Source: Desulfobulbaceae bacterium S3730MH12 (GTDB lineage Bacteria; Desulfobacterota; Desulfobulbia; Desulfobulbales; Desulfocapsaceae). From it: a stretch of DNA of 48,982 nucleotides. This document shows, piece by piece, positions 4,569-47,251 of this stretch; the first letter of the stretch is position 1; each line of letters begins with the position of its first letter. Position numbers and translations under genes: made by a program. A model generated the notes under the pieces. The model worked only from the letters and a program-made list of their open reading frames with translations. It searched no databases and was not told the origin of the DNA. The DNA lies in the NCBI GenBank assembly GCA_001750925.1, contig MAXH01000274.1, positions 1 to 48,982 of the forward strand, read 5' to 3'.

Positions 4569-4696
4569 TTTAGTGCTTTACTCCATAAAAGCTGTAATAA
4601 AAACCAATAAAATCAAAAATTGATTTAATTCAAATGGTTAATACCAGCATCAAGGCACTTATCCAGCGTAACTAAAAAGTTTTCCGATTTGTCGGG
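4569..4696 (+). repeat. Composite dispersed repeat, full copy 1
   Basis: A 128 bp element with a conserved left end (TTTAGTGCTTTACTCC then AGCTGTAATAAAAA) and right end (GGCACTTATCCAG then TTTTCCGATTTGTCGGG). The middle differs between copies. It lies in the 312 bp gap between the divergent livK and lpxK genes, ending about 20 bp before the lpxK start. Other full copies are at 34361-34487 (inverted) and 47099-47251. The rest of the gap (4405-4568) is AT-rich and should hold both promoters, but no other feature is recognisable. Confidence 0.8.
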
Positions 4697-8766: not shown

Positions 8767-8786
8767 TTTTTTTTACGACGCCATCA
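8767..8786 (-). repeat. GATGGCGTCG-family repeat at the end of panC
   Basis: On the minus strand this reads TGATGGCGTCGTAAAAAAA. It supplies the last codons (Met-Ala-Ser) and the TAA stop of panC, so the repeat has become part of the coding sequence. Confidence 0.75.
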
Positions 8787-10459: not shown

Positions 10460-11815
10460 ATGATTCATAATACTCAATCTGAACCCATACTCACGGTAAC
10501 TCAACTTACCAGGTCAATAAAAACTCTTCTCGAAGGAGAGTACAGATTTATTAGAATAAGCGGTGAGATTTCGAACTTAAAAACCCCTTATTCTGGGCAC
10601 TCCTACTTTTCATTAAAAGATTCTCACTCACAAATTCGAGCTATACTTTTTAAAAATCAGAAAAAATACCTGAGCCATACCTTATCGGACGGGCAGCAGG
10701 TTATCTGTTTTGGCAGGATATCTGTATATGAGCCAAGGGGAGAATATCAGATCATAGTTGATACTGTCGAGCAGTATGGCAAGGGTAACCTGCAAATTGA
10801 GTTTGAAAAGCTGAAAAGGAAATTATCTGACGAGGGAATTTTTTCAGAAGCATATAAAAAACAGATCCCGCCCTACCCTGCAAAAATTGTGATTATCTCT
10901 TCACCGACCGGTGCGGCACTTCGGGATTTTCTGAAAATTGCTGCAACAATGGAATCCCATGTCCATATTCAGATACTGCCGGTTCGAGTACAGGGAAATG
11001 AGTCTGGCCCTGAGATTGTCAAAGCGATCCAACAGGCAAACAGGCTGGATAACGTTGATATTATCGTACTCTGTCGGGGGGGAGGTTCTATAGAAGATCT
11101 CTGGGCTTTTAATGAAGAATCGGTAGCCCGTGCAATTTTCGACTCTATAATTCCGGTTGTCACAGGAATAGGGCATGAGGTTGATTTTACAATAGCCGAT
11201 TTTTGTGCTGATTTCCGTTGCCCTACTCCTACCGGAGTTGCTACACAAATATTGCCGGACGTTTCTGCAGTAAAGGCACATCTGGAACTATTAGAGAGGA
11301 GGATAACACGTCACTTGCAGCACAAGGTCAACTATTTAGAAAATATACTTAGAAATAACATAAGGATGCTGAGTGATCTGGACAGAATATTCGAGAATCT
11401 GGAGCTGCGTCTTAATCTCGGTAAGACATATCTGTTCCAGGCAATAGGGAATACCCTCTCCGGCAGGGAAATGCGCTTTCATCATCAGGAACAAAAGCTG
11501 GAATCCAATGCGCCCCTGGCAAAACTGGAACTACAGGATCAACAACTCAAACTGCTTTTCACTCAGCTGGTTAACCGAATACAAACGCTGCTCAAAGATA
11601 AAGAGTCAAGTCTAGGCAATGTGGCAATCGCTTTGAACAGTGTCAGTCCCCTTGCAACTCTTGCCAGGGGGTATTCAATAGTTACTCGGCTCACTTCATC
11701 CGGTAAACCTGAAAAAGTGGTCACACGGGCTGCAGATACAGTACAGGGAGACAATCTCGGGATCCTCCTTCATAGAGGATCCCTCGAATGTACGGTGACC
11801 AAGGTCAAACCATGA
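10460..11815 (+). CDS. xseA: XseA, exodeoxyribonuclease VII large subunit
   Basis: The 451-residue large subunit of ExoVII, a single-strand DNA nuclease acting in repair. It has an N-terminal OB-fold (about 10-105, VTQLTRSIKTLLEG... ISGEISNLK), the catalytic domain with IISSPTGAALRDFL, VLCRGGGSIEDLWAFN and GIGHEVDFTIADFCADFR, and then a long coiled-coil region (about 270-400). The small subunit xseB is not adjacent. The ribosome binding site is weak. The stop lies just before a GATGGCGTCG-family repeat shared with the convergent ndk gene. Confidence 0.96.
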   Translation: MIHNTQSEPILTVTQLTRSIKTLLEGEYRFIRISGEISNLKTPYSGHSYFSLKDSHSQIRAILFKNQKKYLSHTLSDGQQVICFGRISVYEPRGEYQIIVDTVEQYGKGNLQIEFEKLKRKLSDEGIFSEAYKKQIPPYPAKIVIISSPTGAALRDFLKIAATMESHVHIQILPVRVQGNESGPEIVKAIQQANRLDNVDIIVLCRGGGSIEDLWAFNEESVARAIFDSIIPVVTGIGHEVDFTIADFCADFRCPTPTGVATQILPDVSAVKAHLELLERRITRHLQHKVNYLENILRNNIRMLSDLDRIFENLELRLNLGKTYLFQAIGNTLSGREMRFHHQEQKLESNAPLAKLELQDQQLKLLFTQLVNRIQTLLKDKESSLGNVAIALNSVSPLATLARGYSIVTRLTSSGKPEKVVTRAADTVQGDNLGILLHRGSLECTVTKVKP

Positions 11816-11840
11816 CGGCGTCGTAAAAACTCTATTACAG
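11814..11840 (+). repeat. GATGGCGTCG-family repeat between xseA and ndk
   Basis: GACGGCGTCGTAAAAACTC followed by ATTACAG fits the family consensus. It fills the 19 bp gap between the two convergent genes and contributes the TAA stop of ndk on the minus strand. Confidence 0.65.
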
Positions 11841-18265: not shown

Positions 18266-18283
18266 GCTTTTTACGACGCCATT
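18266..18283 (-). repeat. GATGGCGTCG-family repeat at the end of cobC
   Basis: On the minus strand the repeat ATGGCGTCGTAAAAAGC starts inside the TAA stop codon of cobC. It continues into the 70 bp gap before cobT. Confidence 0.7.
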
Positions 18284-22059: not shown

Positions 22060-22128
22060 GATGGCGTCGTAAAAACGCGAATTGTCCATTATTCTGATAA
22101 ATACGATTATTGCCACAACGTCATAAGA
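22060..22128 (+). repeat. GATGGCGTCG-family repeat, long form
   Basis: GATGGCGTCGTAAAAA (22060-22075) is followed by a stretch ending CCACAACGTCATAAG that resembles the one after the copy at 24897. It fills the gap between the solute-binding protein gene and tsaE and reaches the 3' end of the former. Confidence 0.65.
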
Positions 22129-24614: not shown

Positions 24615-25012
24615 ATATAACCACTGTATTAATTATCAATAGGTAATTACTTCCTTACTGGTTGTTTAGTTTTTGTGCTCAAAACCGTAAGATACTATGT
24701 CCCGGGAGGGAAAATGGTAAAAATGGGTGCACTTTGCATCAAACAAAAAGGTTTAAAAGAATGTTACACCAAACAACCTCAGTTGGCTTTATGGCCGATA
24801 TAAAATGGGTGATGTCCTGGTCATAATACTATAGTAAAGTTACCTGTTATCTTGTATCGTGTGCAGTCTATTTAACTTGAGAGCAAACTGATCTTTGATG
24901 GCGTCGTAAAAAGCACCATATTCGAGGCGCATAATTTTTATCATTACGGCAACGAAGCAGGTGAAGAGTTCTGACAACACCATCATCTCTTTATACACCG
25001 GAGTTTATACAA
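24615..25012 (+). other. 400 bp gap upstream of leuC: small ORFs and a repeat
   Basis: The gap holds a 29-codon ORF (24714-24803) with GGGAGG upstream, a 9-codon ORF (24805-24834) reading MGDVLVIIL, and a GATGGCGTCG-family repeat from 24897. The 9-codon frame is rich in Val, Ile and Leu and lies 180 bp before leuC, which would suit a leader peptide, but it has no ribosome binding site of note and no clear attenuator hairpin follows. A promoter for leuCD and one for the divergent YrbL-like gene should also be here; none could be assigned. Confidence 0.4.
24897..24962 (+). repeat. GATGGCGTCG-family repeat, long form, before leuC
   Basis: GATGGCGTCGTAAAAAGC (24897-24914) is followed by a diverged copy of the same long tail as at 22060, ending ATTACGGCAACGAAGCAGG. 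It is 50 bp upstream of leuC. Confidence 0.65.
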
Positions 25013-35939: not shown

Positions 35940-35977
35940 GATGGCGTCGTAAAAAGTCCGATCTACGGCGTTACAGG
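35940..35977 (+). repeat. GATGGCGTCG-family repeat, consensus copy
   Basis: GATGGCGTCGTAAAAAGTCC followed by GATCTACGGCGTTACAGG. It begins right after the LptF-type stop. Its sequence matches the copy at 40944-40981 (opposite strand) at all but three positions. Confidence 0.85.
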
Positions 35978-38966: not shown

Positions 38967-38981
38967 AGTAAGGCACTAAAG
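38967..38981 (-). repeat. Fragment of composite repeat at the nadD stop
   Basis: TTTAGTGCCTTACTC on the minus strand matches the left end of the composite element and includes the nadD TAG stop. The rest of the element is missing. Confidence 0.5.
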
Positions 38982-39629
38982 AGCCTGAGTGGCATAAAGA
39001 TTATGGGTCTTTATATATTCAATCACTTTTTCCGGTATTGTTCCTAATGCTATTTGGTTGTCACTTATATTTTTTCTTATACTTGTTGAAGAGAGATCTG
39101 CGGGAGTCTTCTTCAGAAAACAGATATCCTTGTTGCCCTCTGACCCAACCCAGACGGATCCATTTGTATGTTTATAGCCGAGACTATATGCAAGATCAGC
39201 CAATTCTTTCTCATCAATTCCTTCTCTTTTGGAAACAATAAGGGAAACAAGCTGTACTATTTTTCTATAGGATTTCCAGGTGAGTATATCAAGAAAGGCA
39301 TCGACCCCTATTATGAAATAGAGTGTATACTCCTTCGCTTTTCCACACTGCAAGGCCTTAATAGTGTCTACAGTATAAGATGGTCTAGGCAGTTCACCTT
39401 CTATTGGACTACATTCGAAGAAGGCAGATGCTTCACAGGCAATTTCAAGCATCCGGAGACGATGTTTAAATGAGGTTATCTCTGTTTCCCTTTTGTGTGG
39501 GGGAACGGCTGCAGGGATAAAGAGTATTTTGGTCAGACCATATTCCCCTCGAGCAGCTTCGGCTAACTCAAGGTGACTGGTGTGCACAGGATCAAATGTT
39601 CCCCCCAGTATGCCGATTTTTTGTTTCAA
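38976..39629 (-). CDS. nadD: NadD, nicotinate-nucleotide adenylyltransferase
   Basis: A 217-residue enzyme of NAD synthesis. GGTFDPVHTSHL (9-20) gives the nucleotide-binding T/HxxH motif, followed by FIPAAVPPHKRE and the C-terminal SSTSIRKNI. Its start overlaps the end of proA by 4 bp (ATGA), so the two are translationally coupled. The stop codon lies in a repeat fragment. Confidence 0.95.
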   Translation of the reverse strand: MKQKIGILGGTFDPVHTSHLELAEAARGEYGLTKILFIPAAVPPHKRETEITSFKHRLRMLEIACEASAFFECSPIEGELPRPSYTVDTIKALQCGKAKEYTLYFIIGVDAFLDILTWKSYRKIVQLVSLIVSKREGIDEKELADLAYSLGYKHTNGSVWVGSEGNKDICFLKKTPADLSSTSIRKNISDNQIALGTIPEKVIEYIKTHNLYATQAL

Positions 39630-40882
39630 TTCCGAACCTGGCCCTGCCCATAAACAACAAATTTGCGAGTGGTCAGTTCCTCCAACCCCATTGGCCCATA
39701 AGCGTGTAGCTTAGTGGTGCTGATCCCTATCTCAGCGCCAAGTCCTAATTGACCTCCATCATTGAATCTTGTAGATGCATTAACCATTACAGCTGAGGCA
39801 TCAATTTCAGCCACAAATTTCTGGGCCGTGGTGTAGTTTTCAGTGAGAATCGATTCAGTATGTTGAGAGCTGTTTTGTTGAATATATGCCTTTGCTCCCT
39901 CAAAATTATCAACTACTTTAACGCATAGAATCAGATCAAGAAATTCGGTTCCCCAGTCATCTTCACTGGCAGTCTTCACCAGAGAAGAAAGGGCAACACT
40001 CTTTCTACAGCCAAGCATTGTAACATGTTTTCTATTGAGTTCTTCTGTAATTATCGGCAAGAATTTCCCGGCAATGTCCTTGTGGATGAGGAGTCCCTCC
40101 AGGGCATTGCATACTCCGGGGCGATCCGTTTTTGAATTAATGATTACCGGCACTGCCTTTTCAAGATCTGCATCTTTATCTACGTAGATATGGCAGACAC
40201 CTTTATAATGTTTTAATACGGGAATATTGGAGTTTTTCGTTACAAATCGTATCAACCCTTCGCCGCCTCGTGGAATAACGAGATCGATCTGATCCTCCAG
40301 GGTAAGTAGATGGTTTACTGCCTGGCGATCCGTCACCGGAATAACCTGAACAACATTCGTATCAAATTGCTGGTTGTGCAGGGCTGTTTGTAGAATGGAG
40401 GCAAGTGCAATATTAGAATGAATCGCCTCGGAACCTCCCCGTAGAATCACAGCGTTACCTGCTTTTAAGCAGAGAGCTGCCGCATCAATTGTGACGTTGG
40501 GTCTGGATTCATAGATCATCGCGATAACACCCAGCGGTACAGACATCCTTCCAACCATTAATCCATTGGGTCGCTTGACCAGGCTGTCTATTTTACCGAC
40601 TGGATCAGGTAAGGTACAGATCTCCCTTAAACCTGATATCATTGAGTCAATAACATCATCGGTAAGAGTCAATCTGTCGAGCATTGCTGCTGAGAGTCCG
40701 GTTTCTTTGCCCAAACCAATATCTTTTTTGTTTTCCCTCTGAAGATATTCCTTTTTTTCAAGCAGCAGCCTCGCCACATCCAGTAATACACCATTTTTTT
40801 TCTCCGTGGAAACCGACATAAGAGAGAAAGAACCTCTTTTAGCCTTTGCTGCCAGATCAGTTATAGTATCTTCAAGTGCCAT
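39626..40882 (-). CDS. proA: ProA, gamma-glutamyl phosphate reductase
   Basis: A 418-residue aldehyde-dehydrogenase-like enzyme, the second step of proline synthesis. Visible: YESRPNVTIDAAALCLKAG, IPRGGEGLIRFV, the catalytic Cys in RPGVCNALEGLLIH and LGLGAEIGISTTKLHA. The frame continues 11 codons upstream, but the ATG at 40882 has AAGGAG six bases before it and gives the usual MALEDTI start. It lies where proB-proA would normally be joined, but proB is reduced to a remnant. Confidence 0.96.
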   Translation of the reverse strand: MALEDTITDLAAKAKRGSFSLMSVSTEKKNGVLLDVARLLLEKKEYLQRENKKDIGLGKETGLSAAMLDRLTLTDDVIDSMISGLREICTLPDPVGKIDSLVKRPNGLMVGRMSVPLGVIAMIYESRPNVTIDAAALCLKAGNAVILRGGSEAIHSNIALASILQTALHNQQFDTNVVQVIPVTDRQAVNHLLTLEDQIDLVIPRGGEGLIRFVTKNSNIPVLKHYKGVCHIYVDKDADLEKAVPVIINSKTDRPGVCNALEGLLIHKDIAGKFLPIITEELNRKHVTMLGCRKSVALSSLVKTASEDDWGTEFLDLILCVKVVDNFEGAKAYIQQNSSQHTESILTENYTTAQKFVAEIDASAVMVNASTRFNDGGQLGLGAEIGISTTKLHAYGPMGLEELTTRKFVVYGQGQVRN

Positions 40883-40943
40883 TGCTCTCCTTGATATTAC
40901 ATATTTTTTTATCATTCATGAATGATTATAAACTCGTTAATAG

Positions 40944-40981
40944 CCTGTAACGCAGGAGATCGGACTTTTTACGATGCCATC
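40944..40981 (-). repeat. GATGGCGTCG-family repeat at the proB breakpoint
   Basis: On the minus strand GATGGCATCGTAAAAAGTCC followed by GATCTCCTGCGTTACAGG. It starts 2 bases after the TGA that ends the proB remnant and leads toward proA. Confidence 0.85.
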
Positions 40982-40983
40982 AA

Positions 40984-41118
40984 TCATAGCACAACCAGAT
41001 TCATCCCATCCTCTGCAGTAAGAATGGCACTGCCGACTTTTTTGACAACCCGCTTAGCTTTGTCGAAAAGGGTCTGCCGGTAATACAGTCCTTTCTCAAT
41101 CTCAATTTGCTCATTCAT
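40984..41118 (-). pseudogene. proB: ProB (glutamate 5-kinase) N-terminal remnant
   Basis: The minus-strand ATG at 41118-41116 opens a 44-codon frame. Residues 11-30 (LYYRQTLFDKAKRVVKKVGS) and the following AILTAEDGMNL match the N-terminus of glutamate 5-kinases, including the first glycine loop and lysine. It ends in TGA at 40984, directly followed by a dispersed repeat. Full ProB is about 370 residues, so the kinase core and any PUA domain are gone. It lies 9 bp after obgE and before proA, the place of proB in related genomes. It cannot be an active kinase. Confidence 0.85.
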
Positions 41119-41127
41119 AGGGGTATG

Positions 41128-42189
<1,062 letters not shown>

Positions 42190-47098: not shown

Positions 47099-47251
47099 TT
47101 TAGTGCCTTACTCCATAAAAGCTGTAATAAAAAACAAGCAAACATGAACTGCTATTAAAGTCGCTGGTTAAGGCCAGCAACAGATAGCGAACGTAGAGAG
47201 ATCTTCGAGGCACTTATCCAGTGACTCTAAAAATTTTTCCGACTTGTCGGG
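47099..47251 (+). repeat. Composite dispersed repeat, full copy 3
   Basis: A 153 bp element. The left end TTTAGTGCCTTACTCC and AAAAGCTGTAATAAAAAAC is nearly identical to the copy at 4569 over about 38 bases. The right end has GGCACTTATCCAG and TTTTTCCGACTTGTCGGG. The middle is longer and unrelated. It occupies the likely dnaB promoter region. Confidence 0.85.

Follow-up and report, generated by a model that had tools for sequence, protein, structure and literature searches.

A proB remnant beside a MITE-like repeat in a Desulfobulbaceae genome: probable recent in-frame deletion with proA retained

In Bacillus subtilis, glutamate semialdehyde (GSA) formed by RocD bypasses proA or proBA lesions (PMC9245794), and in Staphylococcus aureus arginine is converted to proline via RocD and ProC (PMC3510247). 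Prokaryotic MITEs are elements of 50-200 nt with terminal inverted repeats and mostly 6-7 bp target duplications, present as short dispersed copies (PMC10969869).

In Desulfobulbaceae bacterium S3730MH12 (genome G000), a 44-codon frame derived from proB was found between obgE and an intact proA on the 48,982-nt stretch of DNA analysed here (the window; Table 1). As in the B. subtilis suppressors (PMC9245794), glutamate-to-GSA steps are lost, and ornithine aminotransferase together with P5C reductase can give proline; yet those strains were laboratory mutants in which the bypass was demonstrated, whereas G000 carries a natural, lineage-specific deletion with proA kept, and its bypass is predicted from gene content only. 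The ornithine-proline link by RocD and ProC is also what the proposed route has in common with S. aureus, where the work dealt with regulation and the choice between routes, in a species that is in culture, and is not the source for any proB deletion (PMC3510247). Very probably, proB of G000 underwent a recent in-frame deletion of about 1 kb that was not caused by the neighbouring repeat, and its loss would be tolerated via RocD and ProC or via PutP.

Table 1. Features of the obgE-nadD interval (window coordinates)
Feature	Position	Strand	Remark
obgE	41128..42150	(-)	upstream neighbour, synteny anchor
proB remnant ORF, 44 codons	40984..41118	(-)	proB codons 1-39 + in-frame NLVVL + stop
Deletion junction	40996..41001	(-)	codons 40-41, N-L; AA.CT microhomology of two proB ends
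Internally deleted MITE-like copy, ~55 nt	40927..40981	(-)	starts 2 nt past proB stop
proA, gamma-glutamyl phosphate reductase, intact	39626..40882	(-)	longest ORF starts 40915
nadD	38976..39629	(-)	downstream neighbour, selection control

Anatomy of the proB remnant and its junction

The 44-residue translation (MNEQIEIEKGLYYRQTLFDKAKRVVKKVGSAILTAEDGMNLVVL) is 93% identical to residues 1-44 of the ProB of G002 (tblastn against the window, E 4.7e-19) and lies between obgE and proA in the order seen in G001, G002 and G004; thus both homology and synteny identify it as proB, in agreement with the sequence-only reading, which had taken it for an N-terminal ProB frame. Codons 1-39 end in EDGM and run directly into NLVVL and a stop, the last five codons of proB: the intact G002 gene, with 384 codons between obgE and proA, ends in HRDNLVVL*, and this C-terminus is conserved in the proB of G001, G002 and G004. 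By sequence, NLVVL is the C-terminus of ProB and not a read-through into foreign sequence. Compared with the G002 gene, 1020 nt (1155-135), or 340 codons, are missing in frame, which bears out the proposal that the kinase core went by deletion. The 44-aa frame had no match to the ProB model TIGR01027 and no complete amino-acid-kinase domain above the cut-off, and a search of the PDB returned chance matches only, mostly designed proteins. The frame is a non-functional stump of proB.

The two deletion ends, ATGAACCTC and GATAATCTG, have AA.CT alone in common. As both lie in proB coding sequence, the junction falls within proB and does not reach the repeat, from which it is separated by ~20 nt made up of the 3′ end of proB plus spacer. 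After the TGA stop come TT and GATGGCATCGTAAAAAGTC, so that the repeat does begin two bases past the stop, as had been read. Illegitimate recombination would have joined the look-alikes AAcCT and AAtCT within proB, removing 340 of the 384 codons. The sequence-only reading had the repeat take part in this deletion, and recombination between repeat copies is suggested by the repeat near the junction and by the deletion in the sister species G005, which ends in the repeat. This origin is nevertheless most improbable for G000, where the 3′ end of proB, its stop and TT precede the repeat (a separate insertion in the spacer) and no repeat copy is left on the 5′ side of the junction. The idea thus fails in G000, with its junction inside proB, and stands in G005, where the deletion ends inside the element.

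It is also hardly credible that the junction is an assembly artefact hiding an intact proB between obgE and proA: the assembly is a draft with a dispersed repeat close by, but the junction contains no repeat of a length that could collapse, and proB is likewise missing from the independently assembled G005.

The dispersed MITE-like repeat

The copy in the proB-proA spacer (left part GATGGCATCGTAAAAAGTCCGATCTCCTGCGTTACAGG, right part TATTAACGAGTTTATA) belongs to a family that was correctly recognized as dispersed, since GATGGCRTCGTAAAAA has seven matches in the window versus 0.09 expected. Allowing at most one mismatch, GATGGCRTCGTAAAAAGTC was found 42 times in G000, 154 times in G002, 89 in G005, 86 in G006, 28 in G003, 26 in G004 and not at all in G001 (reversed-pattern control, 0 copies). 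Full copies span GATGGCGTCGTAAAAAGTC to about TTTTTACGAGTTTATC, many of them with an internal palindrome; GATGGCGTCGTAAAAA at one end and TTTTTACGAGTTTATC at the other form terminal inverted repeats, as in MITEs, though imperfect ones, and exact target duplications were found in 18 copies (12 of 6 nt, 5 of 7 nt and 1 of 5 nt). Copy lengths range from 49 to 196 nt. The likeness to prokaryotic MITEs (PMC10969869) thus lies in size, terminal inverted repeats, target duplications and the dispersal of short copies, and on these features the GATGGC repeat is a MITE-like element that inserted separately in the proB-proA spacer. Unlike full prokaryotic MITEs, the spacer copy is internally deleted, and its target duplication is approximate only (ATGATT/ATCATT). 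At the corresponding position G002 has an empty site. The insertion of the element into this spacer would predate the deletion in G000. A literature search found no report on the GATGGC repeat.

Within the window, GATGGCGTCGTAAAAA copies of the element are located at 8770-8785, 11814-11829, 18268-18283, 22060-22075, 24897-24912, 35940-35955 and 40966-40981. Several lie immediately upstream of gene starts, in the direction of transcription, a placement that may be due to chance or may have an effect on expression. A second dispersed repeat (TTACTCCA.AAAAGCTGTAATAAAAAACAAG) is present at 2065-2127, 4572-4634 and 47102-47164 of the window and at L053:8730-8870, and in G003 a copy related to it is positioned between obgE and proB.

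Loss of proB in two sister species and the state of proA

A full proB is located between obgE and proA in G001, G002 and G004, in line with the gene order given in the sequence-only reading, so the short frame is not common to all relatives; moreover, the proB model matched in 54 of 54 family genomes that are at least 90% complete. The G001 gene (L055:3995-5239) is ~31 codons longer than those of its congeners, with the family match split around residues 58-63. The TIGR01027 search of the G000 assembly detected no proB while all 14 controls matched, and the second glutamate 5-kinase that had been considered was not found there. Because this assembly is 81.7% complete, absence of proB from the genome is likely rather than certain. 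A diverged or relocated glutamate kinase in the ~18% of the genome unseen might replace ProB, but this is quite improbable: the two amino-acid-kinase family loci found encode a 256-aa frame (UMP-kinase size) and a 479-aa frame (aspartokinase size), and a hidden copy would have to have been missed in G005 too, where TIGR01027 matched nothing above threshold save weakly at an argB-like locus (amino-acid-kinase model).

G005 is the closest congener of G000 (obgE 95% identical). Its obgE-proA spacing is ~101 bp, with no proB in between or elsewhere in the assembly (86% complete). Of proB, just ATGAATGAGCAA is retained, and the right half of the proB-proA element comes next, so that the deletion extends from codon 4 into the element. 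Aligned with MITE copies, the G005 spacer scored 67 over their right half (shuffle maximum 37) and the G000 spacer 70 over their left half (shuffle maximum 35). In the G000 copy the left part is preserved and the inner right part is gone. Since opposite halves are kept, neither allele is derivable from the other at the element, and the simplest reading is that the full element was already present in the common ancestor of the two.

Whether the two species lost proB once or twice was weighed on the remnant. A single loss in their common ancestor, with the alleles later eroded differently, would account for the absence of proB at the same place in both and for the shared element insertion, and an earlier proB deletion could be common to both alleles. 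However, the 38-codon remnant of G000 has kept its protein sequence, with one nonsynonymous (I26K) and six synonymous nucleotide changes relative to G002. Had it been neutral along the whole G000 branch, 10.7, 6.3 or 16.7 nonsynonymous changes would be expected, and the probability of at most one would be 0.0003, 0.014 or 1e-6, with the branch dS derived by hand from pairwise values of proA, obgE or nadD, respectively. Neutrality since the split thus has P ≤0.014, and a single loss seems unlikely. So few nonsynonymous changes point to a recent loss in G000, probably independent of that in G005, a separation that is based on 38 codons and single-gene branch lengths. In G005, proB would have been lost separately, by the deletion that begins at codon 4.

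The proA gene downstream was confirmed as intact, with a full-length model match of 588.5 bits (cut-off 289). Its most likely start, at 40882, is behind AAGGAGAGCA. The product matches 1o20 over 411 residues, has the conserved GVCN cysteine region and is unchanged at each of the 63 positions that do not vary among 43 other ProAs; G005 departs at one of them (D309N). In a three-taxon codon model, the two proB-less branches (G000 and G005) had a proA omega of 0.192 versus 0.071 for G002 (LRT P=0.0032, a nominal value as the test was picked after the pairwise values had been seen), whereas the control genes showed no shift (obgE, P=0.55; nadD, P=0.25; rplU, P=0.55). An omega of 1 on the proB-less branches was rejected (P=2e-15). 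From these rates, proA looks functional, with constraint starting to relax in the proB-less species; it would have been orphaned recently and be at an early stage of relaxation.

Possible sources of proline

G000 carries a full-length proC, while of rocD only the C-terminal part is seen, at the edge of a contig; its 167 aa share 91.6% identity with the rocD product of G005. The gene is full in G002, G003, G004 and G005, and in the last it is flanked by ornithine and aspartate carbamoyltransferase family genes. RocD would convert ornithine to glutamate semialdehyde/P5C, which ProC would then reduce. An argD (cut by a contig end) and argG-like and argH-like genes are also present in G000; loss of argB was considered and set aside, contig C172 beginning inside argD, the neighbour of argB in relatives. 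Furthermore, G000 is the only genome of the genus with a PutP-type symporter above the curated cut-off, encoded next to proline dehydrogenase, with both genes intact. The other genes on that contig are syntenic with G005 and a near-match to the GATGGC repeat is on the same contig, so it very likely is part of the G000 genome. This importer would help make the loss of proB tolerable. Judging by gene content, the ornithine route (RocD, ProC) or uptake by PutP plausibly supplies proline. Searching the literature for proline auxotrophy in the group to which G000 belongs gave no report.

Ornithine cyclodeaminase was rejected as a bypass: a family member is present, but with none of the specific NCBIfam models did it reach the cut-off. 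Its neighbours are a serine dehydratase gene and a hydroxyproline-dehydratase/proline-racemase-like gene; given this neighbourhood and the sub-cut-off scores, a pyrroline-2-carboxylate reductase is an equally likely identity. The cluster (L219:257-3238, contig C44), consisting of the hydroxyproline-dehydratase/proline-racemase-like gene, L-serine dehydratase and the ornithine-cyclodeaminase-family reductase, is also found in G005 and is possibly a hydroxyproline-to-proline route.

In G005 and G002, a P5C-dehydrogenase-like gene (so named from its position beside proline dehydrogenase and its sequence, with no model search) accompanies proline dehydrogenase. It is missing from the proline dehydrogenase locus of G000 (L232:1195-1600, contig C98), where apparently its last few codons are left, and no close P5C dehydrogenase was found in 0.91 Mb of G000 stretches; nor was the gene found in the adjacent stretches of G001, G003 and G004. 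If there is no P5C dehydrogenase, ProA is the sole obvious GSA enzyme besides RocD and ProC, which leads to the reading that proB and P5C dehydrogenase were both lost, severing both connections of glutamate with GSA, and that ProA was kept to run in reverse, as a GSA-oxidising enzyme of proline catabolism; we regard this as very improbable. On the same contig (L232:2545-8261), proline dehydrogenase is separated from a GntR gene by putP and the genes for an NADP-glutamate dehydrogenase and a PrdR-like sigma-54 regulator; in G005, G002, G003 and G001 the two outer genes are close to each other, without these three.

The locus carries a warning that a repeat beside a gene remnant need not be the cause of the remnant. 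The proB loss in this uncultured relative of sulfate reducers is a gene loss of an ordinary kind, specific to its lineage, for which a bypass is known. It provides a natural, base-resolved case of losing the first enzyme of proline synthesis in a lineage with genes for ornithine aminotransferase and P5C reductase. The sister species probably underwent a second, independent loss, and in proA, the partner left behind, an early relaxation can be measured.
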